A DNA stretch of 36,922 bases, taken from the IMG/VR virus record IMGVR_UViG_3300048573_000149, positions 1 to 36,922 of that record. One strand, 5' to 3'. Positions within the stretch are counted from its first letter, which is position 1. Every line of letters starts with the position of its first letter. Below the pieces are notes generated by a model, which saw only the letters and a program-made list of their open reading frames with translations, was not told the DNA's origin and did no database searches. This DNA is from a virus. This document shows positions 4,413 through 21,487 of this stretch, piece by piece. The position numbers and the translations under genes were made by a program.

Positions 4413-5180
4413 TTAATTTTCATTTGCAAATGATTGCCTTTCGGCCTGTATAGCTTTCTCAGCTAATTTCTTTTCTCGGGCGATTTTTCTAGCTTCAAGC
4501 ATCTTAGCTCTGTATTTAGGGTCTGCCCATTTTAATTTCATATTCTCACGGGTAACGTCCGCATTCTTTTTCTGTGATTCTTTTTGAATTTGTGAGAGTC
4601 TCTTTTTATAAGCCGGATCTGCCCATCTTTCAGAAGTAGCTTTTGATATTTTAGTTCTAGCGGAATCATTGTTTGTTCCACTTCTCATTTTATTTATTTT
4701 AAGCTGCTTCTCTTCATCACTTAATGAATTCCACCATAGTTTATTTTTTTCAGAGTGGATGTCTCTCATACTCGTTCGTATGGAACTAAGTTTTTTCTTA
4801 GTCTCATCTGATACGATTACTCCAGTTGGACCGATTTCTCCGCCATCCGTAAGGTTAGATAAAATACCACCTTCAGCTATTCTTTTGAAATTAGAAATTA
4901 ACTTCTTTTCTAAATCTAAACAAAATTCTCTTGATTTATGTATAACAAAAAGCACAAACTTTGGAGAATTATTTTTAATCTCTTTCTTGGTTATCGAGGT
5001 CTTTAATTTATTTGTACCATTTAAAAGCTCGTGTTGAGACACATGTACAAGTGCTCTACTTCTAATACCAACGCCAACATAATAAAGTGTACCATCATCT
5101 CTGCATAAACCGTATGTATAAGATTTGGTTTTATCTTTATAAATTAAAGACTTAATTTCACTTTGTGTTAAAATTCTCAT
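4413..5180 (-). CDS. GIY-YIG homing endonuclease with NUMOD3 repeats
   Basis: 255 residues from the ATG at 5180, chosen because GGAGAAAGTT precedes it; the frame could extend to 5195. The N-terminal nuclease domain shows YTYGLCRDDG then LYYVGVG (the GIY and YIG strands), an Arg after it, and EKKLISNF with the likely catalytic Glu. From about residue 120 the repeats SDETKKKLS, DSARTKISKATSERW and WADPKYRAKM are NUMOD3-type DNA-binding elements. The gene separates the tail terminator from the tail tube gene and is best seen as a free-standing mobile endonuclease. Its leader carries the conserved pseudoknot RNA at 5201-5265. Confidence 0.93.
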   Translation of the reverse strand: MRILTQSEIKSLIYKDKTKSYTYGLCRDDGTLYYVGVGIRSRALVHVSQHELLNGTNKLKTSITKKEIKNNSPKFVLFVIHKSREFCLDLEKKLISNFKRIAEGGILSNLTDGGEIGPTGVIVSDETKKKLSSIRTSMRDIHSEKNKLWWNSLSDEEKQLKINKMRSGTNNDSARTKISKATSERWADPAYKKRLSQIQKESQKKNADVTRENMKLKWADPKYRAKMLEARKIAREKKLAEKAIQAERQSFANEN

Positions 5181-5200
5181 AACTTTCTCCATCAAGAAAA

Positions 5201-5265
5201 CATCACAAATAAGATAAGGCAGGACGGTGATGAATCGTCTTTTCCCCCGCTAAAGGTAGCCATTA
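5201..5265 (-). ncRNA. Pseudoknotted leader RNA, copy A (upstream of endonuclease 4413-5180)
   Basis: Read 5' to 3' on the minus strand. P1 is UAA-bulge-GGC (5265-5259) pairing with GCCUUA (5220-5215). Then come UA (5258-5257), a short CC/GG hairpin, GAAAA (5244-5240), P3 GACG/CGUC (5239-5236 with 5226-5223) and CUGC. Six loop bases of P3, CAUCAC (5232-5227), pair with GUGAUG (5206-5201), forming a pseudoknot 20 nt before the AUG. It starts 12 nt after the stop of the tail terminator gene. Two further copies share the frame with different helix sequences. Confidence 0.72.
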
Positions 5266-5277
5266 AATATTGTAGAA

Positions 5278-5685
5278 TTAGTTAGAATAAACTTCTGCTA
5301 CTAATTCAATTAATACAGGACAGATTATTCTATCCGAAGCGATTGTTGTACCAGCTACTTGAGGTGTGCGTAATACATGGATATGTACACCATCTTCTGT
5401 AAACACAGTACCTTTTTTAAAGTGATTTCTTACAAGTTCTGCTCTAGAGATAACTTCAGAAGTTCCTTTGTTTGCAGCACCTACAATAAATACTTGCATT
5501 GTCATTCGTTCTCTATAAAAACCCGTACCAAGCACAGGATCATCAGGAGACTGAATCATAAATTGTACACGCTGATAAACAGTATCTGGCGGTGTAAAAC
5601 TAACACCTTCCCATGCCGTTGGAACAATGGGTATTAATGTATTTAATTTACGTTCGGCTGCTCTTTTTACTTGAATAATTGCCAT
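5278..5685 (-). CDS. Tail terminator protein, DUF4128-like
   Basis: 135 residues. The segment RAAERKLNTLIPIVPTAWEG, then a middle part on the range and size of a gpU-like fold, and ending VLIELVAEVYSN, matches DUF4128 tail terminator or completion proteins as I know them. The protein would cap the tail tube and join it to the connector. It overlaps the preceding gene by one base (TAATG), so the two are translationally coupled. Family assignment is moderately sure; role follows from position between connector and tube genes. Confidence 0.75.
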   Translation of the reverse strand: MAIIQVKRAAERKLNTLIPIVPTAWEGVSFTPPDTVYQRVQFMIQSPDDPVLGTGFYRERMTMQVFIVGAANKGTSEVISRAELVRNHFKKGTVFTEDGVHIHVLRTPQVAGTTIASDRIICPVLIELVAEVYSN

Positions 5686-6230
5686 TAGCTTGCCTTATAA
5701 TAGTTGTTAAGTTCCGCTGTATATATACCATAAATAGCATGCAATGTTGGTTCCATAATACCATTAGGCGCTTGTGAAGATGCACCACCTTCAAGTGATC
5801 TAACAGGGGAACCATTTTTATAAGTATCGTAAGGCCATGCATCTTTTGATACATAAGGAACGTTGTTTGTAATGTAGACGGTATTACCAAGCTTATAATT
5901 TTCAGATCGGTATTCTGCAGATTGTTTTACATTGAGTGCATTTTCACTGTCTGCTTGCATGAACCACCAACTGGTATAAGGTTTATTCATTTCAATGATC
6001 CAACCACCTTTAGCCATACCAGCTTTTGTATTTTTCAATACTCTTTTACGTGCAGGATTATTATAAAGTGCAGCATATTCTACGTCATCACCAAAGGGTG
6101 TATTTTCGATAGCTTCGAAAGCAACATGGTATATAAACAATTGAACCATGCCTTCCATCTTACGAATCGCTTCTTCATGGAACTTCTTTAAGCTTTGTTG
6201 TAGTTTTGAAGTATCACATGAAATATACAT
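5685..6230 (-). CDS. Head-tail joining/tail completion protein (HK97 gp10-like)
   Basis: 181 residues. It starts MYISCDTSKLQQSLKKFHEE, with a helical N-terminus and later TPFGDDVEYAALYNNPARKR and PYVSKDAWPYD, the usual layout of HK97 gp10-like neck proteins (N-terminal helix, then NTP-x-DTG-like turn, and a conserved aromatic core). It lies between a stopper-like gene (6232) and the tail terminator (5278) with one-base gaps or overlaps, so all three are one translation unit. Confidence 0.7.
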   Translation of the reverse strand: MYISCDTSKLQQSLKKFHEEAIRKMEGMVQLFIYHVAFEAIENTPFGDDVEYAALYNNPARKRVLKNTKAGMAKGGWIIEMNKPYTSWWFMQADSENALNVKQSAEYRSENYKLGNTVYITNNVPYVSKDAWPYDTYKNGSPVRSLEGGASSQAPNGIMEPTLHAIYGIYTAELNNYYKAS

Positions 6231-6231
6231 A

Positions 6232-6588
6232 TCAACCCTTTATAGCTAAAAGCTTATATAATATTACAGCACCATCTGCAGCGTGTTCCGTAAAAGAATC
6301 AACTACATATGTAACGGAATCAAAAGTAATTTTATCTTGTGCAGCAGGTTTAAATGTTAGACTGTTATTGGCTAAATAAAATACAGCAGAGTCTTTACCA
6401 ATCATGTTAGGAAAGTTATACTGATTAGCACGAATATGCTTCTTATACATTTTTAAAGTATGCGATGTTTCAGTATTAGTTGTAGAACCTGTTTCGATAT
6501 TGTATGTACCTTCGGTTACTACAGTATATGTACAAGTTTTACCGTGCTGATTAATTGCTCTTAATGTTATAGCAAGATATCTATCCAT
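6232..6588 (-). CDS. Head closure (stopper) protein, putative
   Basis: 118 residues, beta-rich, with no catalytic motif. The order adaptor, stopper, gp10-like, terminator, tube is standard in siphophages and places this protein as the connector plug that keeps DNA in the head. The phrase ITFDSVTYVVDSFTEHAADG near the C-terminus resembles the last strands of SPP1 gp16-like proteins. Assignment rests on position more than on sequence. Confidence 0.6.
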   Translation of the reverse strand: MDRYLAITLRAINQHGKTCTYTVVTEGTYNIETGSTTNTETSHTLKMYKKHIRANQYNFPNMIGKDSAVFYLANNSLTFKPAAQDKITFDSVTYVVDSFTEHAADGAVILYKLLAIKG

Positions 6589-6601
6589 ATTAGTCCTTCA
6601 G

Positions 6602-7009
6602 TTAAATACCAAATGAACTTGGTCGATATGTAAATGTTTCAGCAGTAGGTTGTACAATAATATTATTATCTAAATTGCTGTCATTCTTTAACATATCTTC
6701 TTTTGAGATGCCACCAGCATAACCTTGAATCTTGTCGTACATTGTGTTAAGATCAGGATTCTTAATGTACATCTGCAAAGCTTGCATGTAATTCTTAGCA
6801 GCAGCAGTACCTTTGACGCTAAAAATATCGACCGTTTCATCGCTACGCATAGATAACTTAAGCATGATACTTTTAGCTGCATCCATAGCTGAACGTTGAA
6901 GAGCGTTTGAATTCTTGGTTAAAAAATACTGATACTCAGCGTCAGACATGATTGGAAACTCTGGTGAAGTATCACCTAACTCGTATCGAAGGTCTTGAAT
7001 TGTAGCCAT
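6602..7009 (-). CDS. Head-tail adaptor protein, putative
   Basis: 135 residues, mostly helical: TIQDLRYELGDTSPEFPIMS, then SDAEYQYFLTKNSNALQRSA and a helical middle. This is the typical pattern of phage connector adaptors that dock under the portal. AAGGAAAATACAT precedes the ATG. In an uninterrupted relative it would directly follow the capsid gene; here an endonuclease gene (7022-7846) lies between them. Confidence 0.65.
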   Translation of the reverse strand: MATIQDLRYELGDTSPEFPIMSDAEYQYFLTKNSNALQRSAMDAAKSIMLKLSMRSDETVDIFSVKGTAAAKNYMQALQMYIKNPDLNTMYDKIQGYAGGISKEDMLKNDSNLDNNIIVQPTAETFTYRPSSFGI

Positions 7010-7021
7010 TATGTATTTTCC

Positions 7022-7846
7022 TTATGTTCCATGTCGCTCTGTGTAACCTGCACCGTTATCGTTTAATTGTTCTATTTGTTCTTTGCGCCATTGGCAAGCT
7101 AGACGGAAAGCTTCATCTTTACCGTATTTTGAGATGCTGAAAGATTTCTCTAATCTCACACCGGATTCATCTAAAACAGATGCTCTGTATGTATTTTTTA
7201 TAGTAGATGAAACACCCGTAACACCTGTAGAATTTCTTTTATCAATTTTAAGATTTCTTCTATTGACTTTACTACACACTTGTCTGAGATTCTTCAAGGA
7301 ATTATCAGAAGGATTTCCATTTATGTGGTCAATTATTTTCGAACTATCAATAGATTTATTAGCTAAAAGATAAATTACTCTGTGAACTTTTACAGACTTA
7401 TTTTTATGTGTTATTGACCAAGAACCATCGGGCGAAAGTACACCAGCAACAGAGTCTTTGGAATTAACCAATGAGTTATAATTTTTACCAGCATACACAT
7501 TAACTCTAAATCTTAAACCAGAAGGACTAGTTTCATCAATATAAAATTTTTGATTAAAAGTATCGTAATCAAGTTCTTTTGTTTTAGAGGATGATGTTTG
7601 TAAGTTAACAACTGACTTTTTATATTCTTCTATTTTAATTGATTCTAATGCTATAGCAGCTTCTTTACTCAAAGAATCTTCAATAATCTCTACGATAAAA
7701 CCACCAGCCTGTTTTACCAAATCATTCCAAGCTTTCAATTTTCTAGTTGTAACATAAGGTCTTTTTAAAGTTCCTTGACCAACATAGAAAATGTCATTTG
7801 TATCTTTTCTTCTGTGCAAATAAACACAGTATTTACTGTCTTGCAT
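7022..7846 (-). CDS. Homing endonuclease fusing GIY-YIG, HNH_3 and AP2 domains
   Basis: 274 residues from the ATG at 7846, chosen because GGGAGAAATT precedes it; a GTG at 7867 is possible but has no good ribosome site. Residues 5-90: GIY-YIG nuclease (YCVYLHRRKD, IFYVGQG, later ALESIKIEEY). Residues 150-205: HNH_3 nuclease (KVHRVIYLLAN, IIDHINGNPSDNSLKNLR). Residues 210-265: AP2-type DNA-binding part (NSTGVTGVSS, YRASV, KSFSISKYGKDEAFRLA). Two complete-looking nuclease domains in one chain is unusual. It sits between capsid and adaptor genes, and has its own promoters and the leader RNA copy B. Confidence 0.9.
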   Translation of the reverse strand: MQDSKYCVYLHRRKDTNDIFYVGQGTLKRPYVTTRKLKAWNDLVKQAGGFIVEIIEDSLSKEAAIALESIKIEEYKKSVVNLQTSSSKTKELDYDTFNQKFYIDETSPSGLRFRVNVYAGKNYNSLVNSKDSVAGVLSPDGSWSITHKNKSVKVHRVIYLLANKSIDSSKIIDHINGNPSDNSLKNLRQVCSKVNRRNLKIDKRNSTGVTGVSSTIKNTYRASVLDESGVRLEKSFSISKYGKDEAFRLACQWRKEQIEQLNDNGAGYTERHGT

Positions 7847-7862
7847 AATTTCTCCCGAAATT

Positions 7863-7928
7863 TCCACTTAAAGACAATTAGCAGGAACTGTGGATAGTAG
7901 TTCTTTTCGGGGATCAGCCTAGCTAATT
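7863..7928 (-). ncRNA. Pseudoknotted leader RNA, copy B (upstream of endonuclease 7022-7846)
   Basis: Minus strand. P1 AAUUAGC (7928-7922) pairs perfectly with GCUAAUU (7882-7876). Then UA, a GG/CC hairpin, GAAAA (7908-7904), P3 GAACU/AGUUC (7903-7899 with 7889-7885), CUGC. Loop bases UCCAC (7894-7890) pair with GUGGA (7867-7863), 16 nt before the AUG. The linker between P1' and the pseudoknot is 8 nt, as in copy A. This copy has the cleanest P1. Confidence 0.72.
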
Positions 7929-7948
7929 TTATCTAACGTAAAGACTGT

Positions 7949-7977
7949 ATTCTAACACAAGAAATGTTAGATTGCAA
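7949..7977 (-). promoter_or_regulatory. Promoter of the GIY-YIG/HNH gene, within nested inverted repeats
   Basis: Minus strand: TTGCAA (7972-7977), 17-nt spacer, TAGAAT (7949-7954), TGT before the -10. The spacer and -10 lie in a 7-bp inverted repeat (TCTAACA/TGTTAGA), which itself is bracketed by a 10-bp inverted repeat (7932-7941 with 7981-7990). The arms could be operators. Confidence 0.7.
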
Positions 7978-7987
7978 TACTTACGTT

Positions 7988-8006
7988 AGAAACCCGCCGA
8001 AGCGGG
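7988..8006 (-). terminator. Terminator downstream of the capsid gene
   Basis: CCCGC-UUCG-GCGGG stem-loop (8006-7993) followed by UUUCU on the minus strand. A weaker GCCC/GGGC hairpin with UUUCU lies nearer the capsid stop (8039-8028). Confidence 0.75.
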
Positions 8007-8012
8007 AATCTA

Positions 8013-8041
8013 ATTATACTACAGAAAGCCCCAAAGGGCAA
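8013..8041 (-). promoter_or_regulatory. Candidate second promoter between capsid and endonuclease genes
   Basis: Minus strand: TTGCCC (8036-8041), 17-nt spacer, TATAAT (8013-8018). It overlaps the weak hairpin after the capsid gene. The predicted start (about 8006) is the first base of the UUCG hairpin, so the RNA would begin at that stem. Confidence 0.5.
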
Positions 8042-8044
8042 TCA

Positions 8045-9058
8045 TCAGTTAGAAGTTGTTAATTGAATAACAGCTTGTGGGCGGCGAATCAAGTTCAAAA
8101 AGTTTGACTCAGATTGAAGTAGGATTTCGCTATCCTTAGGGTCTTTGTAGCTAAACACGTAAGCAGCTTCACCCAAAGTATTCACATGAGAAAATTTATT
8201 CGCTGGGCTAAAATAAGTCAAGAACATGTCAGAAGTACCTTGTGGTAGCATGTAAGCTTCACCAGCAGGAATCAAAGCTGTACCGTTGTAGGAACCACGG
8301 TATTCAATGTAAGTCACACCTGAATGCACGAAACGGCGATATAGGCCAGAACCTAGACGGTTACGTAGTGGCTCTTGAGTGCTAGTGTAATACTTGTAAG
8401 CTTCTTTAACAGTAGCGTGGTTAATTAGCTTACCGAAGAATGCTGGAGAGCATAGTACGATAACTTCATTAACTACTTCACCGCTTTGGATGTTATCCTG
8501 AATGTGCGCGATACCTTCTTCTGACTTAGCTGTTAGGTCAGTGGTAGAAGTACCGAGTACGAAATCGATAGACTTACGTGTGATACCGAAATCAGTGTAA
8601 AAGTTGCCAGCTACAGTGCCGTTAGGAGCATAGATAGCGCCAGCAGTGATAGCATAAGCACGAGCAGCTTCTAGGGTGACAGCGTGGTTCATACGGATAC
8701 GCTCTAGCTTACGAGCGATAACGGCAGCTTCAGTTTCAGCTTGATCAGCAGAACCGTAAGCACGTTTACCTTGAATGTCTTCAGGTTTGACAGAATCGTC
8801 AAGTGGGAAATGGGCGACTGGGAATGAACGGAGTGAACGGGTGTCGTTCTTGTTTACGTTGTTGCGTTCGCCACGAAATTTATCGGTGATTAGACCGAGA
8901 GTACCTTCGCTGGATTCAACGGTAACGCTGTGTTGGGATACGCCTTCTTCACGGAAGATACCTAACTCTTGGATCAAACCCCAAGCGTTTGGGATGAGCA
9001 AAAGTTCTTCTGTGTAATCGACTAGCTCAAATGGTTTTTCAAAACTACGAGTTTGCAT
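8045..9058 (-). CDS. Major capsid protein, lambda gpE-like
   Basis: 337 residues, matching the size of gpE-family capsid proteins. The start has FEKPFELVDYTEELLLIPN, then WGLIQELGIF; the middle has TLEAARAYAITAGAIYAPNG; the end has LNLIRRPQAVIQL. These are the usual conserved parts of Phage_cap_E proteins as I know them. AAGGAAATTATA lies ahead of the ATG. The downstream double hairpin terminator agrees with very high expression. It follows the gpD-like decoration gene, as in lambda (D then E). Confidence 0.93.
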   Translation of the reverse strand: MQTRSFEKPFELVDYTEELLLIPNAWGLIQELGIFREEGVSQHSVTVESSEGTLGLITDKFRGERNNVNKNDTRSLRSFPVAHFPLDDSVKPEDIQGKRAYGSADQAETEAAVIARKLERIRMNHAVTLEAARAYAITAGAIYAPNGTVAGNFYTDFGITRKSIDFVLGTSTTDLTAKSEEGIAHIQDNIQSGEVVNEVIVLCSPAFFGKLINHATVKEAYKYYTSTQEPLRNRLGSGLYRRFVHSGVTYIEYRGSYNGTALIPAGEAYMLPQGTSDMFLTYFSPANKFSHVNTLGEAAYVFSYKDPKDSEILLQSESNFLNLIRRPQAVIQLTTSN

Positions 9059-9096
9059 TATAATTTCCTTATTTTATTGTAGGTGTCTATCAGATA

Positions 9097-9492
9097 TTAA
9101 ACTGCATCGTTGCAGTTAATACCTTTAGCTTCTAGAGCAGCGTATACAGCAGCTTTTTCAGCATCTAGGTTGTATGTAGCGTCTAGAATTAGACCATCTT
9201 TAGATACAGTGGCTGGACCTTTTACTAAGCATAGAACTTTAGTATCGGTAGTAGCAGCAACGGTTTGTTCAACCATTACGATTGCATCAGCGACTTCTGA
9301 ACCATCAGTTGCAGTTTGTACAGCGATTTTGTACTTACCGCCTTCTGTAACTTTACCTAGCACAGTACCGGGAACTAGAGTAGCTGCAGTGCCGTTATAA
9401 GTAACAGCTAGACGGCAGTAAGCAGTCTCAGGGAAGAGTTCTTGTTTGACAACGTTAGAAAGACGTTTTGCTTCTGTTGCGATTAGTGGCAT
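9097..9492 (-). CDS. Head decoration protein, lambda gpD-like
   Basis: 131 residues. TLVPGTVLGKV, a Val/Ala/Thr-rich beta part and GPATVSKDGLILD are typical of the HDPD (gpD) family, which trims the capsid surface and strengthens it after DNA packaging. AAGGAAATAAA precedes the ATG at 9492. It lies directly upstream of the capsid gene. Confidence 0.87.
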   Translation of the reverse strand: MPLIATEAKRLSNVVKQELFPETAYCRLAVTYNGTAATLVPGTVLGKVTEGGKYKIAVQTATDGSEVADAIVMVEQTVAATTDTKVLCLVKGPATVSKDGLILDATYNLDAEKAAVYAALEAKGINCNDAV

Positions 9493-9508
9493 TTTATTTC
9501 CTTAAATA

Positions 9509-10726
9509 TTATTTGGCTTGCTTGGCTTTAAGTAACTTTGCCACAGCAGATTCTTTAACAGCAGGTTCTTCTTGAGTAGAAGCACCCTTTTCTACGAACA
9601 TCTCAGATGTTTCTACGGTTGCTACCAGTGCTTCAACAGCAGATAGGAACGCATTAAAATCATCCTCGGATTCTAGTGCCAGTGCAGCCTTAGCGATTGC
9701 CTGTACTTTGCTTTCGTCTTTCACGATAGCTTTAACTTTTTCAGTTTTTGCTTTATTCACAGCTTCTTTTTTCTCAGCTTCAAATAGAGCAATTGTTTCG
9801 AGAGCTTTTTGTAGTTGTACCTTCTGCTCGTCTAGAGCTTTTTGCACAAGTTCAAACTGAGCTTTTTCAACGGTTTCGACTTTTACTTCGTCTTCCATCT
9901 TAGATTTCTCCAATTCTTCTTTGTTAACAGAGGTAGACACCCCTTCAATATTCTCAACGCCAGCGTTTGTTGAGGTATCATTACCGTCTGCAATAGCAGC
10001 AGGTGCAGATTCTTTTGTTAGAGATTTGGATACTTTGCTGAGTGTTCCAGCTTTGTGACCAACCATTGTGTCGGTAGGTTTACCATCTCTATATAACTTA
10101 ATCATGACAGCAGGATTTTGTTCAGTGCCATTTAAAGTAAATTCTGTATTAGGTACTTGCATAGAACCATCATTTACGATCTTGGTAACTTTACCTGTTG
10201 CCATACCACCGCTGGAATTCCATGAAACCATGTCACCAACTTTAGGTTTATATGCTTTTTCTAACTGTGTGAATGCTTTTTCAATTTGTTCTTGATCGGT
10301 CAACATAGCCAGATATTCTGTTTCATCCAAGGTAGATAGTACGTCAGCTAGACTATCAGCTTCATGTGCAGACTTTAAAATCTCAAAAGCTTCCATCTTA
10401 GATTGAATGTAATCTTCATAGCTTTCCATTGATTCATACTCTTCAGACTCAGGCTTCTCATAACCCATCATACGAGCTAGGATTTCAACGTCATCGCCGT
10501 AGAGTGAGAAAAATTTACGTAGGAAATCTGGTAACTCCATAGTTACTCGAACTTGTTGCATCTTTTCAATGAACTCTTCACTAAAGTTATTAGACTTTAA
10601 AATAAGCGCATAGTCGTGACCGTTTGCAGGGCCAGATTGTTGTTTGCTAGTTAGAGCTACATGTGCTCCTTGCTTTTCAAAACTAATATCAGATAGCTTT
10701 CTTTTAGCTTTACGTTGTGTTGCCAT
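9509..10726 (-). CDS. Capsid scaffold-like protein with a TUDOR-like (DUF2945) insert
   Basis: 405 residues. The C-terminal part (about 270-405) is a highly charged helical, coiled-coil region, as in scaffolds. Residues about 160-225 contain KVGDMVSWNSSGGMATGKVT then a short beta stretch ending TMVGHKAGTL, which resembles the HVA1/DUF2945 TUDOR-like domain. The helical N-terminus has acidic repeats (PESEEYESMESYEDY). The ATG (10726) shares one base with the protease stop (TAATG), so the protease and this protein are coupled. In this gene order (portal, protease, scaffold, decoration, capsid) a scaffold or scaffold-fusion is expected. A role for the TUDOR-like part is unknown. Confidence 0.7.
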   Translation of the reverse strand: MATQRKAKRKLSDISFEKQGAHVALTSKQQSGPANGHDYALILKSNNFSEEFIEKMQQVRVTMELPDFLRKFFSLYGDDVEILARMMGYEKPESEEYESMESYEDYIQSKMEAFEILKSAHEADSLADVLSTLDETEYLAMLTDQEQIEKAFTQLEKAYKPKVGDMVSWNSSGGMATGKVTKIVNDGSMQVPNTEFTLNGTEQNPAVMIKLYRDGKPTDTMVGHKAGTLSKVSKSLTKESAPAAIADGNDTSTNAGVENIEGVSTSVNKEELEKSKMEDEVKVETVEKAQFELVQKALDEQKVQLQKALETIALFEAEKKEAVNKAKTEKVKAIVKDESKVQAIAKAALALESEDDFNAFLSAVEALVATVETSEMFVEKGASTQEEPAVKESAVAKLLKAKQAK

Positions 10727-11520
10727 TATTCATCCTCTTCGATTGATTCGACAGATGCTAAAGCACCAATACTCAAACCATTGATTTCACCAGACTTGAT
10801 TAACTCCCAAAGATCATCATCTAAGGCTTGAATAGTAGCTAACCAAGTGCCCTTTTTTACGAATTTATCACCCAATACAAAATCAGTTGGGCAGCAGTAA
10901 CTCTCGCAGAACTCAAAAGTATCTGTTTCAACTAAGTGAAATAGATTAGCTTTCATGCAGTATTTATTGAAGTTTGTCATTGCTTTACGAACTTCAGATT
11001 CATTAGTTACATCACCATGAAGATCGACTTCATCAGGAACCATAACTATAAATGTAGCTTGCTTTAGCTCTTCGTCAACAGCTTTAGTAATCGGAAGTTT
11101 AACTCCCGGTAACTCATCTTCAGTGCTTAATTCCACGTCAGTAATGTCTTTAGTGTAGGACTTTACGATACCTTCTTTTTTCAGAATGCTACGTGCCCAT
11201 GCGAAACCTGCTGATCCGCCCCAAGTTAACCATGCGATGGTTCCCGCTGTTGCGCCACCGTCTGGCATTTTCTTTTTAGGTTGGTAGTTCTTCTCATGCC
11301 TACTGAAGAAGCTATACATTCGCTTAACAGTGTCTAAGCTGAGATTGCCCTCTATAATATCTCTCGCTCTCGCCACACCGGACCCAATACCTTGTTTTCC
11401 AGCTTCACGAGTATCTAATCCACCTCTGCCATATTTCTCACGTAAGGCTAAACCTCTTCGTGCATTATTTCGCATTGCATCTGTAGGAGCATAGCTTTTA
11501 GTTTTATTAATTGTTTCCAT
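10726..11520 (-). CDS. Prohead maturation protease, XkdF/S78_2-like
   Basis: 264 residues in two parts. Residues 10-110: AMRNNARRGLALREKYGRGG and GSGVARARDI, RMYSFFSRHE, IAWLTWGGSAGFAWAR, an accessory domain often found on phage head proteases or portals. Residues 130-262: ATFIVMVPDEVDLHGDVTN, FHLVETDTFEFCES, WLATIQALDDDLWELIKSGE and NGLSIGALA, the XkdF (peptidase S78_2) pattern, with a probable catalytic His in FHLVET and Ser in GLSIG. It should cleave scaffold and capsid during head maturation. Confidence 0.85.
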   Translation of the reverse strand: METINKTKSYAPTDAMRNNARRGLALREKYGRGGLDTREAGKQGIGSGVARARDIIEGNLSLDTVKRMYSFFSRHEKNYQPKKKMPDGGATAGTIAWLTWGGSAGFAWARSILKKEGIVKSYTKDITDVELSTEDELPGVKLPITKAVDEELKQATFIVMVPDEVDLHGDVTNESEVRKAMTNFNKYCMKANLFHLVETDTFEFCESYCCPTDFVLGDKFVKKGTWLATIQALDDDLWELIKSGEINGLSIGALASVESIEEDE

Positions 11521-11550
11521 ACTATTCCTATTTAGCGCAATATAAACATA

Positions 11551-11579
11551 ATTATATCACAATGTTGCTAATAAATCAA
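11551..11579 (-). promoter_or_regulatory. Promoter for the protease-scaffold-decoration-capsid operon
   Basis: Minus strand: TTGATT (11574-11579), 17-nt spacer, TATAAT (11551-11556), TGA before the -10. The -35 lies in one arm of a 10-bp perfect inverted repeat (11573-11582 with 11620-11629) that fills the gap after gene 11638-11910, so the same repeat may form an RNA hairpin ending the upstream transcript. Confidence 0.78.
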
Positions 11580-11637
11580 GTGAAATATTTATTATTCATA
11601 TATTAATGCACAATAATATCACTTGATTTTATTTAAG

Positions 11638-11910
11638 TTAAACTTCAGATACTTCTTGAGTAGTAACTAGTATTAGATTAGCTTTTTGTAATCCTGCGTC
11701 CAATGCTCCAAAGTAAACTTTGCGAGGCCAATTAACATCGTTACAGATAGTATCTAATTCAGTATCATCAAAATAACCATTAGTTAAGTAGTGAGTGACT
11801 GGTAGTTCTCCAGTAGCAGATGCAGGTGCTGTAAAATACTCAGGAAAAGCAGCTTGCGCCACCTCCTGATCTGCTGCAAGAACCACTACGGTTGCTAGTG
11901 TTGAGTTCAT
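11638..11910 (-). CDS. Hypothetical structural-region protein
   Basis: 90 residues, mildly acidic, with no recognised motif. It starts MNSTLATVVVLAADQEVAQA after AAGGAAAATAA. It sits between the GC-rich lectin-like gene and the head protease. The C-terminal part reads VYFGALDAGLQKANLILVTT. No function is claimed. Confidence 0.65.
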   Translation of the reverse strand: MNSTLATVVVLAADQEVAQAAFPEYFTAPASATGELPVTHYLTNGYFDDTELDTICNDVNWPRKVYFGALDAGLQKANLILVTTQEVSEV

Positions 11911-11950
11911 TTATTTTCCTTATTGTTTTTACTGATGTTACTATTCATGG

Positions 11951-13693: not shown

Positions 13694-13696
13694 GAT

Positions 13697-14134
13697 TTAT
13701 GCCTTGTTGAAATAAACAACTTGAACGTTTGTTGTAGCACCACGAGCAATTAGTTTAACGGCGGCAAGGCTAGTGTCTACATAGTAGAATACGCCATCAT
13801 CAATGCGAGAACCTACGGATGCAGTTGGGGTGGTGCCGTCTAGTGTAATACTTACTGCGCTACCATCTGCTTGAATACTAGCAGCTACAGCACCCGTAGG
13901 AACTGTAAGAGTAACCACTGCTCCTGTAGTGACACTAATAGTTTGGCGACCTACGCATGTTCTTGTATTGATTGAAATAGGGATAGGATTACCTGTATCA
14001 TTCGTGATTTCAACTTCAGAACTAATTGTAGCTGTAGCTGTTGTTTGTAAACGACCAATTGAATCTACTCTCAATGGGATGACTTGATCTGCTTGACCAA
14101 CTTGCGTAAATACGCCTTCAATTACTGTACTCAT
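13697..14134 (-). CDS. Small beta-rich structural protein, putative
   Basis: 145 residues, Thr/Val/Ile-rich, no membrane segment. It starts MSTVIEGVFTQVGQADQVIP. The middle reads GAVVTLTVPTGAVAASIQAD and the end VQVVYFNKA, the look of a small virion beta-sandwich protein. It lies three bases from the next gene, with which it is probably co-translated. No family is recognised. Confidence 0.6.
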   Translation of the reverse strand: MSTVIEGVFTQVGQADQVIPLRVDSIGRLQTTATATISSEVEITNDTGNPIPISINTRTCVGRQTISVTTGAVVTLTVPTGAVAASIQADGSAVSITLDGTTPTASVGSRIDDGVFYYVDTSLAAVKLIARGATTNVQVVYFNKA

Positions 14135-14157
14135 GATTTTTCCTTAATATGTTTTGT

Positions 14158-15558
14158 TTATAAATTAATCTGACTTACACGCAATGTAGCAGAAGGTGTT
14201 GCTGGTGCAAATGCAGTATTTGCAGGAGCGTTGATTGAAATAGCTGTATCACTTACTGCGTACATTAATTCAAAATAATCGTTGATTTGCATACTGACTG
14301 AAAAACTCCAAGAAGGTACTAACTCTACACCGTTACCAACAATAGTAACTTTAGAAGTACTTCGCGGCATGTCTACACCGTTCTTTCTAGCCCATATGTA
14401 AATTACTTTTTGTGATGAATTAGAAGATGTTAATTGCAATCTAAAATCAAAAGAATAAAGACCTGCATTATCTGTAGTGATCTTATTTTGATCAACTACT
14501 CGTACACCACTTGAAATATCTGTGTTTTCAAAGTTTACTTTATATGCAGTGTTAACAGAAAGTGCTGTTTGTGTGACAGAACTTGAAAATACTCCATAAA
14601 ATAATCTAGGAAATATTACAGGTCTTGCTAGAATAATACCTTGCGTTGCATCTGCTTTTAAAACTGCAGCTACTGAAATTACAACATTAGGTGCAGTGGG
14701 TTGAACACTTGTCATCTTTCCCGGTAGAGTAGGATGTGCCCAAAGTAAAGTACCTTTTTGCCAAGTTTCACCTACATCTGATCCAGTTGTATTAAGATTG
14801 CGTACTTTACCTAAAATAGTAGCTCTACCTCTTTGACCGGGAATAAGAGTATTAGTCAATACACCGATAATATACAGTGAAGGCACACTACCATCTGCAA
14901 GTAAAGGAGAAGCTTCAGGAATTTCTTCTAAGCTTACACCTGAAAATTTTACAACAGAACCATTGGGTAAAGTGCTACTTGTTTTATTAATAACTTCAAT
15001 ATATTGTTCAAGACCAACTTGCAATACTGAACTATCACCTTGCACAATATCTAAACAATCTTCAAATTCATTCCAAGTAAGCATACCGGGAAGATAATCT
15101 TCTGAGGTGTAATTGGCTGTGGTGTTCATCTGCACATGATCGAATACAGGGTTTACACTAACTCCGATTCTTTGATCAATGTGCTGTTCTACAGCTTTAC
15201 CTTTGGTTACTACTCGCCTACCATCGGACATTAGAATCACGAGATGACCTTGTGCATCGAATTCTGCAGCTTTTACTGTAGCGGCTATGGGTAGATCATT
15301 TTCAGCCTTAGAAACCATCTCAAAAGGGCTTGTATAGCTTCTTAGTGATTCTACATGTGAAGGAAGCTTAGGTGCTTTTACTTTTGCAGGTTGATTTTTA
15401 CGTTCTTCTATTTTTACTGCGTTAGTTCCAGCGAAGATTGATTCTTCTTTTGAGTATCCTTTGTCAAGAGAAGCATTGGCCACCTTTGCAAATAACTCCC
15501 TTAATTTTAAAGATTTACTCTTCATGGAAGCTGGCAGGTTATCTGCAGACCATTGCAT
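14158..15558 (-). CDS. Structural protein with ChaB-like N-terminus and C1q-like C-terminus
   Basis: 466 residues. Residues 5-52 (DNLPASMKSKSLKLRELFAK then GYSKEESIFAGTNAV) resemble a ChaB-type helical domain seen on phage head-region proteins. Residues 160-310 contain MLTWNEFEDCLDIVQGD and QYIEVINKTSSTLPNGSVVK, typical of virion proteins near the capsid. Residues 330-466 read as a jelly-roll like C1q/TNF domain (TALSVNTAYKVNFEN, AGLYSFDFRLQL, INDYFELMYAVSDT). It is probably a head fibre or decoration. AAAAGGAGAAAAT precedes the ATG. Confidence 0.65.
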   Translation of the reverse strand: MQWSADNLPASMKSKSLKLRELFAKVANASLDKGYSKEESIFAGTNAVKIEERKNQPAKVKAPKLPSHVESLRSYTSPFEMVSKAENDLPIAATVKAAEFDAQGHLVILMSDGRRVVTKGKAVEQHIDQRIGVSVNPVFDHVQMNTTANYTSEDYLPGMLTWNEFEDCLDIVQGDSSVLQVGLEQYIEVINKTSSTLPNGSVVKFSGVSLEEIPEASPLLADGSVPSLYIIGVLTNTLIPGQRGRATILGKVRNLNTTGSDVGETWQKGTLLWAHPTLPGKMTSVQPTAPNVVISVAAVLKADATQGIILARPVIFPRLFYGVFSSSVTQTALSVNTAYKVNFENTDISSGVRVVDQNKITTDNAGLYSFDFRLQLTSSNSSQKVIYIWARKNGVDMPRSTSKVTIVGNGVELVPSWSFSVSMQINDYFELMYAVSDTAISINAPANTAFAPATPSATLRVSQINL

Positions 15559-15571
15559 ATTTTCTCCTTTT

Positions 15572-15604
15572 AAAACAACAATAACCCTGAGATTTACTCA
15601 GGGT
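15572..15604 (-). terminator. Hairpin terminator downstream of portal/endonuclease genes
   Basis: Minus strand: a perfect 8-bp stem ACCCUGAG/CUCAGGGU (15604-15597 with 15591-15584), loop UAAAU, then UAUUGUUGUUUU. It lies only about five bases after the predicted start of the promoter at 15616-15644, so it can also act as a 5' hairpin of the next transcript. Confidence 0.7.
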
Positions 15605-15615
15605 ATTTGTAAACT

Positions 15616-15644
15616 ATTATAGCATATTAATCTGGTTAATTCAA
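15616..15644 (-). promoter_or_regulatory. Promoter for the 14158-15558 operon
   Basis: Minus strand: TTGAAT (15639-15644), 17-nt spacer, TATAAT (15616-15621), TGC before the -10. The -35 overlaps the stop codon of the GIY-YIG gene 15641-16006. Confidence 0.8.
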
Positions 15645-16006
15645 GATAAATTGTATTTACATTTTCTATTGATTATTTCAATTGCTGATTTTGAAAGTTT
15701 ACCACCTTCTACAGTGTTCCATCCCATATATTCAAATGGTCTGAGCATTCGTTCAAGTTCGTATGCTTGTTTTACACCGCAAACACACAGGCGAGTTCTT
15801 ACAATCGAATTTATTCCGTGTTGTGCAAAAGCTAAATGCATCGGATTATAAGGATTGTAAGAACTCTTAAATTTGTTACAGTGCTCTCTAAAGCGAATAT
15901 CAATCAAGCGAGTAGTTACACCAACGTATCCTTGTGTGAATACGTCAGTGTCATTCTTTAGATGTAACCAATATACAGCAGCTACTTTTTCAGTATTATG
16001 CAGCAT
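15641..16006 (-). CDS. Small GIY-YIG endonuclease
   Basis: 121 residues, only the nuclease domain: VYWLHLKNDTD (GIY strand), GYVGVTTRLIDIRFREH (YIG strand and catalytic Arg), KQAYELERMLRPFEYMGWNT (catalytic Glu region, then the Asn-containing C-terminal end). There is no DNA-binding tail except a short SKSAIEIINRK end, so target choice may depend on another factor or be lost. Its start overlaps the portal stop by 11 bases; it therefore lacks the leader RNA seen at the other three late-region genes. Confidence 0.85.
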   Translation of the reverse strand: MLHNTEKVAAVYWLHLKNDTDVFTQGYVGVTTRLIDIRFREHCNKFKSSYNPYNPMHLAFAQHGINSIVRTRLCVCGVKQAYELERMLRPFEYMGWNTVEGGKLSKSAIEIINRKCKYNLS

Positions 16007-17471
16007 TCTCTAAGTTACCAGAGCTTGTATCTGCACCAGAAGGCGATGTTGCCGTACCTTCACCTGCAGTTTTAAAACCATCTCCACTGCGAGAAGTCAT
16101 AGCGGGTAAATAGTCTGCGTTTGGCTCTTCATCGTCAGGTAGACTATCTACACCAAGTGATTCTCTGACACGGTTTAATACTGCACGATCAATTTCAAGT
16201 ACAGATGTGCTACTAAATCTTTGGACCGCTTTACTGAATGATTCTAAGTCTTCGATCTCTAGATTATCAAAATCAATGTAACCCATGCGAGAAGTATTCC
16301 AACCGTTTAGTTCATATGTTTGTTTAATCAAATCTTCGTTAATAACATCACGAATCTTTTTAAGCATGGACTCTGCAGCAGTAGCAGATAAAGAGTTTTT
16401 AACTTGACCTAGAGCGTTAGAGCCATTGCCTGATTGACCTAGTACTAGAATATCAGCAAACAAGGAAGTCAAGATTAGATTTTTATAGTATTCTTTAATC
16501 TTAGAGGTATCCATTGCTTTACTACCGTTTAAAGATAGTAGTTCAAGTTCAAACAAAGGTTGCTTTGTATCAGGATCATGCGCTTGTGGTAGAATCAATG
16601 CAGACTGTTGGTTTAACTGCAAGTTACGCATTACGTTTTCATAGTATGCACGAATTGCTTTTTGATCAGGAGAAGCTTCTGAGGATAGGTACTGTGGAGG
16701 TAGCTTTAGCACAGGTAGACCAGCTAAATCTTTAGCTACACCATTAGCTTCAATCTCTTCGATTACGCTTAGGAAACGCCATGCAAGATAAGCATCACGT
16801 AGCATTGATTTACCGAAAGGATCACCCTTGTGTTTACCTGCGCGAAACAGCATAATCTTGCTGCGAGGTAAAATTACTTCATTATTTGTGCGGCTACTGT
16901 ATCGATTGTAAACATCAGAGATAGCTGAAAGGTTTTGCTTTACACCTTTTACTTCGTTACCGTCTTCACTGAAGATGAACTTTTCAATAGTTTCTTGATT
17001 ACGAATTGGTAGTTTCTTCCAACCAATAACACCGTCATTGTATTTTGAACCGTTGGATTTTAAACGTCTACGATATACTTTTTCATGCACAGAAAAACCA
17101 TACATATTAGCAGACATTGCTTCAGATATAAATTCAGACCATGTTTGATCTGTCAAGTCTTGCATCATTTCATTGATGATTTTAGCATGTTCAGTCTCTT
17201 CAGGTGTAGCATCTGCAACAGGCTTGAACTTCCAATCGGCTTTACTTACAATATTTTCAAACAATGTCAACGCAGAATTAATCGTAGCGTGATAAGACAT
17301 TTGTTTATAAGTATTAATACTGTTAGGAAAGTTCAGTTCTCTTTTGAGTTCATCATTAGAAACACCGTTGAAGACATTTAAACCAAGATAACCTGATTCG
17401 CTTAATTTGAAGCGATCTGGCGTATCATCCAGTGCTTTTTGTACTGAGTTGTTTTGTGATTTACGTGCCAT
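15996..17471 (-). CDS. Portal protein, DUF935-like
   Basis: 491 residues. FENIVSKADWKFKPVADATP, MSANMYGFSVHEKVYRRR, VIGWKKLPIRNQETIEKF, SKIMLFRAGKHKGDPFGKSM and LAGLPVLKLPPQYL are the usual landmarks of DUF935-type phage portals as I know them. The C-terminus is disordered (Asp/Ser/Gly-rich). AAAGGAG precedes the ATG. It lies right after TerL. It forms the dodecameric ring for DNA entry. Confidence 0.9.
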   Translation of the reverse strand: MARKSQNNSVQKALDDTPDRFKLSESGYLGLNVFNGVSNDELKRELNFPNSINTYKQMSYHATINSALTLFENIVSKADWKFKPVADATPEETEHAKIINEMMQDLTDQTWSEFISEAMSANMYGFSVHEKVYRRRLKSNGSKYNDGVIGWKKLPIRNQETIEKFIFSEDGNEVKGVKQNLSAISDVYNRYSSRTNNEVILPRSKIMLFRAGKHKGDPFGKSMLRDAYLAWRFLSVIEEIEANGVAKDLAGLPVLKLPPQYLSSEASPDQKAIRAYYENVMRNLQLNQQSALILPQAHDPDTKQPLFELELLSLNGSKAMDTSKIKEYYKNLILTSLFADILVLGQSGNGSNALGQVKNSLSATAAESMLKKIRDVINEDLIKQTYELNGWNTSRMGYIDFDNLEIEDLESFSKAVQRFSSTSVLEIDRAVLNRVRESLGVDSLPDDEEPNADYLPAMTSRSGDGFKTAGEGTATSPSGADTSSGNLENAA

Positions 17472-17486
17472 TAACGGCTCCTTTAA

Positions 17487-18953
17487 TTATGAAACTAGTG
17501 AACTTTGAAATGTAGGGATATTGGAACCTGTGATGCTTCCATCAAATGGGTTAGTACCTGTGAAGTCTGGTAGTGAGAATGTAGGAATAACCAATTCCTT
17601 ATTTAATAGTAAGAATGCATCAGAACAGCAATCTACTTGGTCATCTTTTTTCTTTGGGTCACCATCGAAAATTTCAAGTTCATCGTAAAATGCTTTATTC
17701 CAATCAGCTTTAACTACGTTTACGAAACCAGATTGTGCTACACTTGAAAATGGTGCAAAACGAGTTATCTTCGACTTAACAGGTTTAGAGAGTCTTACGT
17801 TGAAGCCCATCTCTGCCAATCTTCTTTGTAAGTCTCTAGCATATGCACCAGCAGCAGCAGCGGGATCAATTGGAATTGAAATTGTAACTTCTTGTCCGTC
17901 TCTTACTGCAGTTTCGAATATTAACTGCTCAACCTTGTGAACTCTATCTCTTAAAGATACAACATCTTCCACCGTATACACATTGGTAGCGTCTTTAGAA
18001 ATTAAAACACCACGAGTATAATCTGGATTAGGATATTGCTCAGATGGGGCAGAAAAAGCCGTGTCCCATGCTCTTACTCGTCTTTTAGCCCTACCGTTAG
18101 GTAAATAAACTTCTTCTACCCATTCCCTTTTAAACATACCCGATGTCTGCTGACGAGCATACCATGATCCCAGTAAAAGTCTTTCCATTTCAACTCTAGG
18201 TAAAGCTTTCAATTTTGATACATATGTAGGATCAGCCTTCATTAATGGAGGATTATCGTATATCGTACCGGGTACAAACATAAAAGTTAAAATACCGGAC
18301 TGATCACCTGACCCATAAATTGATTCTAATTCTTCTCTGGTGTCGGCCCACGCTAATTGACCACCAGCAACTTGAACCATATATCGCATTGGGTAAACAT
18401 CTTTTCGAATAGGGATACCTCTTTCGTCCAATGCAAATTCAACCCATTCACGAATAAAACTATCATAATCAGGGTTGCCCGTAGCAAAAGCTTGTTTTTT
18501 ATAATCCACAGATGTAGACCGCAATCTAGACAACATATAAACTACGTTATCTTGATTTAATTGTTGTATCTCATCAAAGCCTAAAAATGTCAACTCTGCG
18601 CCCTGATAATTATATTTGTCAGAAGCATTGTCTAGATATCCGAATTTTAAAGTAGCACCTGAACTGAAAATTAACTCTTGTTCCCGAACTTTAATTCTCA
18701 ACTTAGGGTCTACCTTTTTATAAAGATTAATAGCTGAGTCAAACAGGCCACCCGGATTTGAAATCTGTTTAGTGGTACGTCTAAAAATTACACCTCTAGT
18801 TCTAGGGTGATGACAAAACTTTAAAAAAGCACCAAGTAAACAATGTGACTTACCTGCCCCGGCTGCGCCACCATAAAATGTAATATCTGCAGTACTCATT
18901 AAGAATTGTTCTTGAGCACTAGATGCAGGTGAAAAGACTAAATTACTTGACAC
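17487..18953 (-). CDS. Terminase large subunit
   Basis: 488 residues. ATPase: GGAAGAGKSH (Walker A, about residue 28), FRRTTKQISNPGG (adenine/Arg region), LTFLGFDEIQ (Walker B, about 125), AFATGNP (coupling motif). Nuclease: RRVRAWDTAFS (first Asp, about 300), IPIDPAAAAG (second) and KKDDQVDCCSDAF (third acidic set, about 450). It packages DNA into the head. It starts with GTG at 18953; its AAGGGAAATAATA ribosome site lies inside the end of the upstream endonuclease gene, with an 11-base overlap. Confidence 0.95.
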   Translation of the reverse strand: MSSNLVFSPASSAQEQFLMSTADITFYGGAAGAGKSHCLLGAFLKFCHHPRTRGVIFRRTTKQISNPGGLFDSAINLYKKVDPKLRIKVREQELIFSSGATLKFGYLDNASDKYNYQGAELTFLGFDEIQQLNQDNVVYMLSRLRSTSVDYKKQAFATGNPDYDSFIREWVEFALDERGIPIRKDVYPMRYMVQVAGGQLAWADTREELESIYGSGDQSGILTFMFVPGTIYDNPPLMKADPTYVSKLKALPRVEMERLLLGSWYARQQTSGMFKREWVEEVYLPNGRAKRRVRAWDTAFSAPSEQYPNPDYTRGVLISKDATNVYTVEDVVSLRDRVHKVEQLIFETAVRDGQEVTISIPIDPAAAAGAYARDLQRRLAEMGFNVRLSKPVKSKITRFAPFSSVAQSGFVNVVKADWNKAFYDELEIFDGDPKKKDDQVDCCSDAFLLLNKELVIPTFSLPDFTGTNPFDGSITGSNIPTFQSSLVS

Positions 18954-20124
18954 TATTATTTCCCTTGTTTCTAATAATCGTTAAAATGTGTGCAACTACT
19001 TCATCACGAGTTAGAAATTTCCAGTTATAACCCATCGCAGGTTTATTATTTTTACAGCACTTACTTATCCAATCTGCGGTACTTTCAGTAAAATCAGAAA
19101 AAGATTTAGCAGCGTCATTTGGTCCCCAATAAACATTACCATCTGATCTTAACAGTACTTTTTCTAGATTGGTTATAGGTGCTGTAACTTGTTGCATATC
19201 AGAATAATCTGTAGTAAAAGTCTTATGAATTTCTTCATTAAAATCTTCAACAATATAACCAGAAAATATTACAAAAGGATATTTTTTATTACAAACCATT
19301 TTTGCAGCACAGTAAGCAGCAGGACTTCTTTTTATGTAATTCGCAAAATCTCTTTGTGAATTGAATAAGTAAAGACCGTTTACAAGTACCTTAGTTGATA
19401 CAGCATCAATAAGTTTATTATTTTGACCCGCCTCTGACCTTTTACGGTAAATTTCTTTACGTAATTCTCTATTTTTTTCTTTATCAACTGTCAACCAATG
19501 CCTTTTAATTTTTTCTGACATGTCTCTACGGTACTCTTCAGTATGGTGTTCAGCACGTTTTTCAACAGCTTTTTGTACTTTTTCTTTATCTAACAACCAA
19601 GATGTTTTTCTTAACTTGTCAGCTTCTTTTTCCTCGTCTGTCATAGTTGCATATCTTGCTTTTTGAATCTCAGATAACTTTTGATAGTGAGAAGGATTGG
19701 ACTTGTGCTTTTCTACTTCTTTTTCAATTCTTTCAGATAACTCTTGCAGTAGTTCTGGATTTTCCAACAGTCTCTTTTGGAAAGCTTTTCGCATAACTTC
19801 TCTTGTTTCTTCAGTATGCTTATAACCTGTAGTAGAGACACCACCAATTGTCATATTTACCAAAGAACTCAAACCGTATTTTTCGATTTGTTCAATTTCA
19901 AGTTGAAACGCTTGTTCTTCTGTTAAAGATGAGAACAATATTTCAACAGATCGTCCGTGTTTGTTTACAACACGTTTCCAGTGTTGACTTCTAGAACTTT
20001 TATTCCAAGCTCTTTTACCCTTACCTTTACCTACATAAAATACAGAGTTGTCATCTAACCTGCGATGTAAGTAAACATAATAAATAGGATTTGTGTCTAA
20101 CCCGTTTAAGGTTTCTAAATTCAT
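18943..20124 (-). CDS. GIY-YIG homing endonuclease with NUMOD3 and NUMOD1-like repeats, between terS and terL
   Basis: 393 residues. Residues 12-95: nuclease (YYVYLHRRLDDNSVFYVGKG, RAWNKSSRSQHWKRVVNKHG, FQLEIEQIEKYG). Residues 95-230: basic NUMOD3-like helices (GYKHTEETREVMRKAF, YRRDMSEKIKRHW). Residues 235-390: two NUMOD1/IENR1-like modules (NGLYLFNSQRDFANYIKRSP and GNVYWGPNDAAKSFSDFTES then WISKCCKNN). The gene splits terS from terL and supplies the terL ribosome site. GAGGAGAATAAA precedes the ATG, and the leader carries RNA copy C. Confidence 0.92.
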   Translation of the reverse strand: MNLETLNGLDTNPIYYVYLHRRLDDNSVFYVGKGKGKRAWNKSSRSQHWKRVVNKHGRSVEILFSSLTEEQAFQLEIEQIEKYGLSSLVNMTIGGVSTTGYKHTEETREVMRKAFQKRLLENPELLQELSERIEKEVEKHKSNPSHYQKLSEIQKARYATMTDEEKEADKLRKTSWLLDKEKVQKAVEKRAEHHTEEYRRDMSEKIKRHWLTVDKEKNRELRKEIYRKRSEAGQNNKLIDAVSTKVLVNGLYLFNSQRDFANYIKRSPAAYCAAKMVCNKKYPFVIFSGYIVEDFNEEIHKTFTTDYSDMQQVTAPITNLEKVLLRSDGNVYWGPNDAAKSFSDFTESTADWISKCCKNNKPAMGYNWKFLTRDEVVAHILTIIRNKGNNSVK

Positions 20125-20144
20125 TTTATTCTCCTCAGAATAAG

Positions 20145-20210
20145 CCTCAAATAAACAAACTGGCAGGTAAGTGAGGAGCTTACTTTTCGATCCGTCGATC
20201 TAGCCAATCT
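20145..20210 (-). ncRNA. Pseudoknotted leader RNA, copy C (upstream of endonuclease 18943-20124)
   Basis: Minus strand. P1 AGAUUGGC (20210-20203) pairs with GCCAGUUU (20164-20157), with two G-U pairs. Then UA, a GAUC/GAUC hairpin with GACG loop, GAAAA (20188-20184), P3 GUAAG/CUUAC (20183-20179 with 20171-20167), CUGC. Loop bases CCUCA pair with UGAGG (20149-20145), 7 nt after P1'. The whole loop CUCCUCA is also fully complementary to UGAGGAG (20137-20131), which contains the ribosome site, so a switch between two pairings is possible. It starts 6 nt after the terS stop. Confidence 0.72.
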
Positions 20211-20216
20211 ATAAAA

Positions 20217-20975: not shown

Positions 20976-21053
20976 TGGTCTATGTAGATGGATTTGAACC
21001 ACCGGAATCCTGACCCCAAATCAGGTGACTTAACCAGACTAGCCTATACATAG
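20976..21053 (-). tRNA. tRNA-Pro (UGG)
   Basis: Acceptor CTATGTA/TACATAG, anticodon arm CCTGA-TTTGGGG-TCAGG, T loop TTCAAAT, discriminator A and encoded CCA. All four arms form. Confidence 0.95.
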
Positions 21054-21059
21054 ATTAAT

Positions 21060-21149
21060 TGGCAGAAGTAACAGGATTCGAACCTGTGGGCAGCTTTCAC
21101 CACCGATGGTTTAGCAAACCATTGCCATAAGCCACTCGACCATACTTCT
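21060..21149 (-). tRNA. tRNA-Ser (GCU)
   Basis: Acceptor AGAAGTA/TACTTCT, anticodon arm ATGGT-TTGCTAA-ACCAT, a long class II variable arm, T loop TTCGAAT, discriminator G and encoded CCA. Confidence 0.95.
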
Positions 21150-21156
21150 GTAATAT

Positions 21157-21231
21157 TGGCTGGCAAACGTGGGATCGAACCACGGACCGAACGGTTAACA
21201 GCCGTTTGCTCTACCTCTGAGCTATATGCCA
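21157..21231 (-). tRNA. tRNA-Asn (GUU)
   Basis: Acceptor TGGCATA/TTTGCCA with one U-U mismatch, D arm GCTC/GAGC, anticodon arm AACGG-CTGTTAA-CCGTT, T loop TTCGATC, discriminator G and encoded CCA. Confidence 0.95.
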
Positions 21232-21412: not shown

Positions 21413-21487
21413 TGGAGCTACCACGGAGAATCGAACTCCGCTTCTTAGGATGAAAACCTAATGTCCTGACCGATAGACGATGGTAGC
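21413..21487 (-). tRNA. tRNA-Glu (UUC)
   Basis: Acceptor GCTACCA/TGGTAGC, anticodon arm TTAGG-TTTTCAT-CCTAA, T arm CGGAG-TTCGATT-CTCCG, encoded CCA. Confidence 0.95.

Follow-up and report, generated by a model that had tools for sequence, protein, structure and literature searches.

Int-alpA-type 5′ leaders as probable modular translational switches of mobile genes in phages and bacteria

Introduction

Pseudoknotted translational riboswitches such as preQ1-II/III, SAM-II and glutamine-II place the pseudoknot of a hairpin loop close to the Shine-Dalgarno (SD) sequence. The int-alpA RNA (Rfam RF02996) was reportedly found in 2017 by Weinberg and colleagues, who used comparative genomics. In the literature that we searched, its sole mention was in a presence table and no paper described its function; no match came from searches for bacterial mRNA leaders that pair with themselves or for orphan riboswitches of phages.

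The genes of the homing endonucleases I-TevI and segB of T4 and mobE of Aeh1 have their ribosome site hidden by RNA hairpins (PMC2988022). The HIV-1 DIS loop and the Moloney GACG tetraloop form kissing loops (PMC7357161).

Here we analyze three leaders in a 36,922-base virus record that is related to Limnohabitans phage DC31; this whole stretch of DNA is called the window below. As in the riboswitches named above, a hairpin-loop pseudoknot lies near the SD, but the window leaders match no riboswitch family of Rfam and have neither a known ligand nor a metabolic gene theme. Like the T4-type hairpins, they are leader RNAs before phage homing endonucleases that can hide the SD and have a promoter at the structure; unlike those hairpins, which are simple and gene-specific (PMC2988022), they form a shared family with a junction, a pseudoknot, competing strands, a self-complementary loop and many gene types downstream. 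The kind of control has precedent, and the architecture has none in the literature searched. On comparative grounds we consider it probable that int-alpA-type 5′ leaders are modular cis-acting translational switches of mobile genes.

Identity and anatomy of the three leaders

A covariance model, R1, was built from 49 leaders of other genomes, with the window and close relatives of copy B left out. The model rests on the gapless set A3, and not on an initial alignment, A2, whose P2 region was gappy. R1 matched exactly three copies in the window, C (42.4 bits, E = 6e-10), A (34.8 bits, E = 9e-8) and B (34.0 bits, E = 1.5e-7), and the next best site had 11.6 bits. Judged by these scores, the threefold match is far beyond chance. 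All three copies lie on the minus strand, as do all their parts given below, and every helix of the layout described by the sequence-only reading was found, together with the distance of 16-20 nt from leader to AUG.

Copy C (20122-20210) consists of P1 (20210-20203/20164-20157), P2 (20200-20189, GAUC-GACG-GAUC), P3 (20183-20167), the pseudoknot strand S1 (20149-20142) and the hairpin P4 (20143-20126), which includes the second strand S2 with the SD (20137-20131, UGAGGAG); the AUG is at 20124-20122. In copy A (5178-5267) the corresponding parts are P1 (5265-5259/5220-5215), P2 (5256-5245, loop UAGC), P3 (5239-5223), S1 (5206-5201, GUGAUG), P4 (5199-5184), S2/SD (5194-5188, UGAUGGA) and AUG (5180-5178). 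Copy B (7844-7929), placed by R1 and its MFE fold, has P1 (7928-7922/7882-7876), P2 (7919-7909, with GAUC in the loop), P3 (7903-7885), S1 (7867-7863, GUGGA), P4 (7862-7847, with the SD within its loop) and AUG (7846-7844). The MFE fold of copy C is P1-P2-P3-P4; the pseudoknot-free MFE of copies A and B has a different fold, in which the junction does not appear. The fold of the leaders rests on comparison, not on energy.

Copy C matched int-alpA over the full model with 51.5 bits, above the cut-off (gathering score) of 35.8. Copy A had 28.3 bits over the full model, below the cut-off, and copy B had no Rfam match; both match R1, which was built from int-alpA relatives, with 34-35 bits. The sequence-only reading had not recognised the RNA as a known riboswitch or ribozyme. 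As a claim of a new RNA family this falls with the RF02996 match, while the function is undescribed in the papers searched, and here the novelty stands. The family is thus already known to Rfam. As far as these searches go, the new points are its role as a cis leader, the pseudoknot, the second strand that competes for the loop, the palindrome in the P2 loop and the movement as a mobile cassette. The P1/P2/P3 junction, GAAAA and the U-rich tail of RF02996 are also present in the window copies. In contrast, Rfam gives the family the type of an sRNA gene, with a model that lacks the pseudoknot, P4, S2 and the palindromic P2 loop; this model misses copy B and scores copy A low.

No riboswitch or ribozyme family of Rfam 15 was listed up to E = 10 in a scan of all three copies, nor up to E = 5 in a scan of copy C. 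The idea of a self-processing RNA found no support in this search, and a self-cleaving ribozyme, without a family match in Rfam, was dropped.

Position before genes and promoter

Among 314 distinct copies whose flanking DNA was long enough, 289 (92%) have the start of an ORF (at least 60 aa, or open) 26-56 nt downstream on the same strand, compared with 9% for antisense and 17% for a site 400 nt further on. In 147 of 302 copies a -10-like hexamer (at least 5 of 6 letters of TATAAT) stands 12-23 nt ahead of the GGC of P1, with a peak at 14 nt; further upstream, 22 of 302 copies have one. The TG beside this box is weak, and no -35 box was enriched across the family leaders. In the window, the -10-like box TACAAT (5269-5274, minus strand) directly precedes copy A, at the place of the family-wide enrichment; at copy C the box is weak or absent. 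Placement 26-56 nt before an ORF, often right after a -10 box, identifies the element by sequence comparison as an mRNA 5′ leader, and the position of the box indicates that the transcript probably starts at, within or near P1.

This fixed placement disagrees with the Rfam type 'Gene; sRNA', the one point that speaks for an independent trans-acting sRNA gene. It argues against the label and not against membership in the int-alpA sequence family. For A, B and C no terminator-like site was found between RNA and gene on the transcribed strand, and the loop is complementary to the ribosome site of the very ORF that follows. Taken with the 92% placement, these observations make a trans-acting sRNA very improbable.

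Distribution and downstream genes

Relatives were gathered by RNA patterns, since protein-based searches gave few or no loci. The DNA core pattern was found in at least 120 viral and at least 119 genome contigs, whose record titles name Pseudomonadota, Bacillota, Actinomycetota, Planctomycetota, Cyanobacteria, Chloroflexota, Nitrospirota, Bacteroidota and other phyla. The leader is present in isolated phages, among them Enterobacter phage Tyrion and phage D6E, and in E. coli prophages, and in the order of a Hydrogenophaga genome it was found in 9 of 150 genomes. Most viral records have one copy.

A few planctomycete genomes have six to eight copies each. Examples are the bacterial genomes of Rhodopirellula sallentina (G008, L261-L266) and G063 (L269-L282), where the copies precede integrase genes and, as judged by eye, genes that are YhcG/DUF1016-like or apparently ORF6N. 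Their gene context suggests use by mobile elements other than phages.

The three window copies had been described as preceding three GIY-YIG endonuclease genes, which holds in part. Gene A (4413-5180, minus strand) is a GIY-YIG-type homing endonuclease with a weak Pfam GIY-YIG match (E = 0.0066, below the cut-off) and a match to the homing endonuclease phrog_314. Gene C (18943-20124, minus strand) is a homing endonuclease by PHROGs (phrog_314, E = 1.5e-16), and its GIY-YIG motif, YYVYLHRR..FYVGKG, was found by eye. Gene B (7022-7846, minus strand) is chiefly an HNH_3 plus AP2 endonuclease; its GIY-YIG-like N-terminus was read from the motif, with a sub-threshold Pfam match only in the relative L251.

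Across the family, the link to GIY-YIG genes does not hold. Among 150 downstream proteins we found HNH_3 (14), DUF1376 (9, primosomal), AP2 (8), NUMOD3 (5), integrase (4), Rha (4) and GIY-YIG (2), along with single cases such as C5 methylase and portal; endonuclease VII-like genes also follow family leaders. The same phage has GIY-YIG-like or endonuclease-like genes at 15641-16006, 24366-25154 and 29997-30476, and the R1 search of the window found no leader before them. A GIY-YIG-specific leader was ruled out by this survey together with these three genes.

In Bradyrhizobium and relatives (L136, L144, L155, L203, L211, L223, L228, L229), near-identical leaders stand before unrelated hypothetical genes, as if re-used for many genes.

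In another explanation the folded leader is a site for a protein of phage or host, or for the ribosome, which regulates translation in the manner of many phage translational repressors and chooses the partner of the P3 loop. A protein site would require a constant distance to the start codon and a common core, and the leaders have both. The downstream genes are unrelated, though, and the phages and prophages belong to many phyla; a phage-coded partner is therefore unlikely and a host partner would need to be near universal, and we regard this explanation as unlikely.

Mobility of the leader and exchange of genes

Gene A, RNA A and the -10 box together form a mobile unit (4433-5276, minus strand), with alignment breaks at 4432 and 5277; the segment is absent from DC31, L009, L010, L251, L253, L254 and L256. 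In place of gene B with RNA B (7004-7928, minus strand) DC31 has 19 nt, and the edge of this unit is the first base (5′ end) of P1. In L254, L255, L256, L258 and L259, RNA B is kept up to the ATG and a different gene follows, which is endonuclease VII-like in those tested (L254, L255 and L258). The sequence MW202520.1 has the core of copy A with an entirely different P1, and an HNH gene downstream. Comparison of related phages therefore bears out the earlier proposal that the leader travels with mobile endonuclease genes. From the joint absence of gene and RNA, and from the gene swap at the ATG, we infer that the RNA belongs to the mobile unit but can be parted from the coding sequence at the start codon.

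Pseudoknot and second partner of the P3 loop

The helices are backed by covariation in the gapless alignment. There, 100% of P3 cells are paired and 48 both-side changes occur in P3; over the whole structure such changes number 127, where shuffles give 49. The letters fixed by the search patterns (GGCTAG, CGAAAAG, CCTGCC) are uninformative on conservation and were excluded as evidence.

As in an H-type pseudoknot, pairing of the P3 loop with S1 abuts the 3′ strand of P3 and leaves 1-4 loop bases free on the 5′ side. For 164 distinct loops the mean Watson-Crick run with S1 is 5.07, compared with 3.01 (sd 0.07) after permutation, and this strong covariation between the two strands backs the pseudoknot.

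The same loops are complementary to a second strand. Against the last 19 nt before the start codon (S2) the mean run is 4.99 versus 3.41 permuted (sd 0.07), and 17 loops of an independent scan replicated it (5.53 versus 3.51 ± 0.24). The permutation deals loops to other leaders, and in this way controls for a general anti-SD likeness of the loops. The alternative pairing of loop and ribosome site that had been noticed in copy C is thus a general property of the family. S2 lies 12-16 nt past S1 in most leaders, is inside the P4 loop in 104 of 147, and overlaps the SD by at least 2 bases in 78 of 101.

Both partners (at least 5 pairs, G-U allowed) are present for 105 of the 164 loops, and in 103 of these 105 at least 3 loop nucleotides are common to the two pairings, which makes them mutually exclusive. 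Their duplex energies are near-equal, -7.1 kcal/mol for loop:S1 and -7.6 kcal/mol for loop:S2. An S1 of 5 bp is missing for about a quarter of the loops, and an S2 of this length for about a fifth. Copy B has no S2 complementary to its P3 loop; its P2′/J2-3 strand CCCGAAA (7911-7905) can pair with UUUCGGG (7860-7854) at the SD. In all three window copies the SD falls within P4, either in the loop or in the stem, and by its predicted pairing P4 takes up the SD of an endonuclease gene as the T4-type hairpins do.

Exclusive pairings, one of them touching the ribosome site, are what a riboswitch-like expression platform has, and the anatomy of the leader points to control of translation, as the sequence-only reading had proposed. 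An orphan riboswitch, in which a small molecule at the junction (UA, GAAAA, CU) would stabilise the loop:S1 pseudoknot and thereby free or hide the SD, with the P2 palindrome merely a structural or dimer contact, would explain the similar energies of these pairings, the constant junction amid varying helices and the very wide host range. We consider it somewhat unlikely, as the downstream genes share no metabolic theme, no ligand is known, and the junction letters were fixed by the scan patterns, so that their apparent conservation is partly selection.

Self-complementarity of the P2 loop

A 4-nt internal palindrome is present in 60 of 88 distinct P2 hairpins, compared with 31.4 ± 4.0 when letters are shuffled within columns. 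All 31 hairpins of the 13-nt class have a self-complementary centre, and 29 of the 31 have a Watson-Crick outer pair (CG 12, TA 11, GC 5, AT 1), against 32% expected from the column make-up. With a second scan added, 99 of 100 distinct hairpins have a self-complementary centre, where for the 12-nt class two possible centres were allowed, which raises the chance rate. Tetraloops closed by four pairs are UAGC (12), GACG (8), GAUA (2), GGCC (2) and GCGC (1). Near-identical relatives at the B locus have the loop centre GAUC or GGCC.

A search for a cis partner gave 10 downstream recurrences of the palindrome versus 9.5 expected, which is at chance. A four-base palindrome cannot pair with itself within one hairpin loop; together with this lack of downstream recurrence, the simplest reading of the sequences is that P2 would pair with the P2 of another copy. 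Covariation of the outer bases as palindromes likewise predicts kissing homodimers. As in the HIV-1 DIS, the P2 palindrome may have 2 unpaired nt on its 5′ side and 1 on its 3′ side (AA-UGCA-A), and, like the Moloney GACG loop, P2 tetraloops have an A after which comes a self-complementary dinucleotide, for example GACG in copy C (PMC7357161). In contrast to those kissing loops of retroviral genomes, the P2 palindromes belong to 5′ leaders of bacterial mobile genes, known here from sequence, and have usually 4 nt rather than 6. Without the help of other contacts, kissing through 2-4 bp is weak. As for orthogonal P2 loops within one phage, the loops mostly differ in the multi-copy records, which are too few for a test of this idea.

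If the structure at the 5′ end only protected the mRNA and insulated the ribosome site of an inserted gene from read-through context, with no switching, P1 would be expected to begin about where a transcript from the -10 box does, and the unit to move like a cassette, as was found. Such a passive cap leaves unexplained both the complementarity of the P3 loop to a second, SD-overlapping strand and the covarying P2 palindrome, and appears to us quite improbable.

Possible working of the switch

In the mechanism that we favour, the modular translational switch, the transcript would start at or near P1, and P1, P2 and P3 would form a three-way junction with the joining strands UA, GAAAA and CU. 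The P3 loop would then pair with S1 into an H-type pseudoknot stacked on P3, or the same nucleotides would pair with S2, displayed in the P4 loop and usually overlapping the SD. Because loop:S1 and loop:S2 compete, translation is probably set by the choice of partner: S1 would free the ribosome site from the loop and S2 would mask it. We infer this direction with some reserve, as P4 can hide the SD itself and pairing with S1 need not mean ON; P4 may add repression or may hold S2 away from the loop. The leader would move with its gene, and another gene could re-use it at the same start codon.

The P2 loops probably form kissing homodimers, and through such a dimer the RNA concentration could bias the choice between S1 and S2; a ligand or protein bound at the junction could do so as well. 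Self-dimerization is thus a possible input of the switch. A further-reaching and tentative proposal is that the leader senses its own concentration. Kissing of two mRNAs by P2 would shift the P3 loop between S1 and the SD, giving a protein-free dosage control that moves with each gene, and differing palindromes would separate co-resident copies.

If the favoured reading is correct, a widespread family filed as an sRNA of unknown function is a cis-acting, gene-independent translation switch of phages and mobile genes across bacteria, and sequence alone predicts which loop bases pair with which strand. A swap of palindrome for palindrome should be neutral and a broken palindrome should not, and the leader should be placeable before any gene. 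Should dimerization set the switch, the leader would be a rare example of an mRNA that gauges how abundant it is, and synthetic biology would gain a compact part.

Other features near the leaders

In the planctomycete genome G063, two near-identical int-alpA leaders (L272 and L274) stand in tandem about 120 nt apart, each with an A/T-rich stretch after it and no clear ORF. In the window, Rfam tRNA matches reveal four clustered tRNA genes (20979-21487, minus strand) upstream of the gene that precedes copy C. Between the capsid gene and copy B (7930-7990) lies an inverted repeat, TCTAACGTAA...TTACGTTAGA, flanking an extended -10-like TGTGTTAGAAT; the repeat is retained in the relatives L251-L259 with its letters changed.
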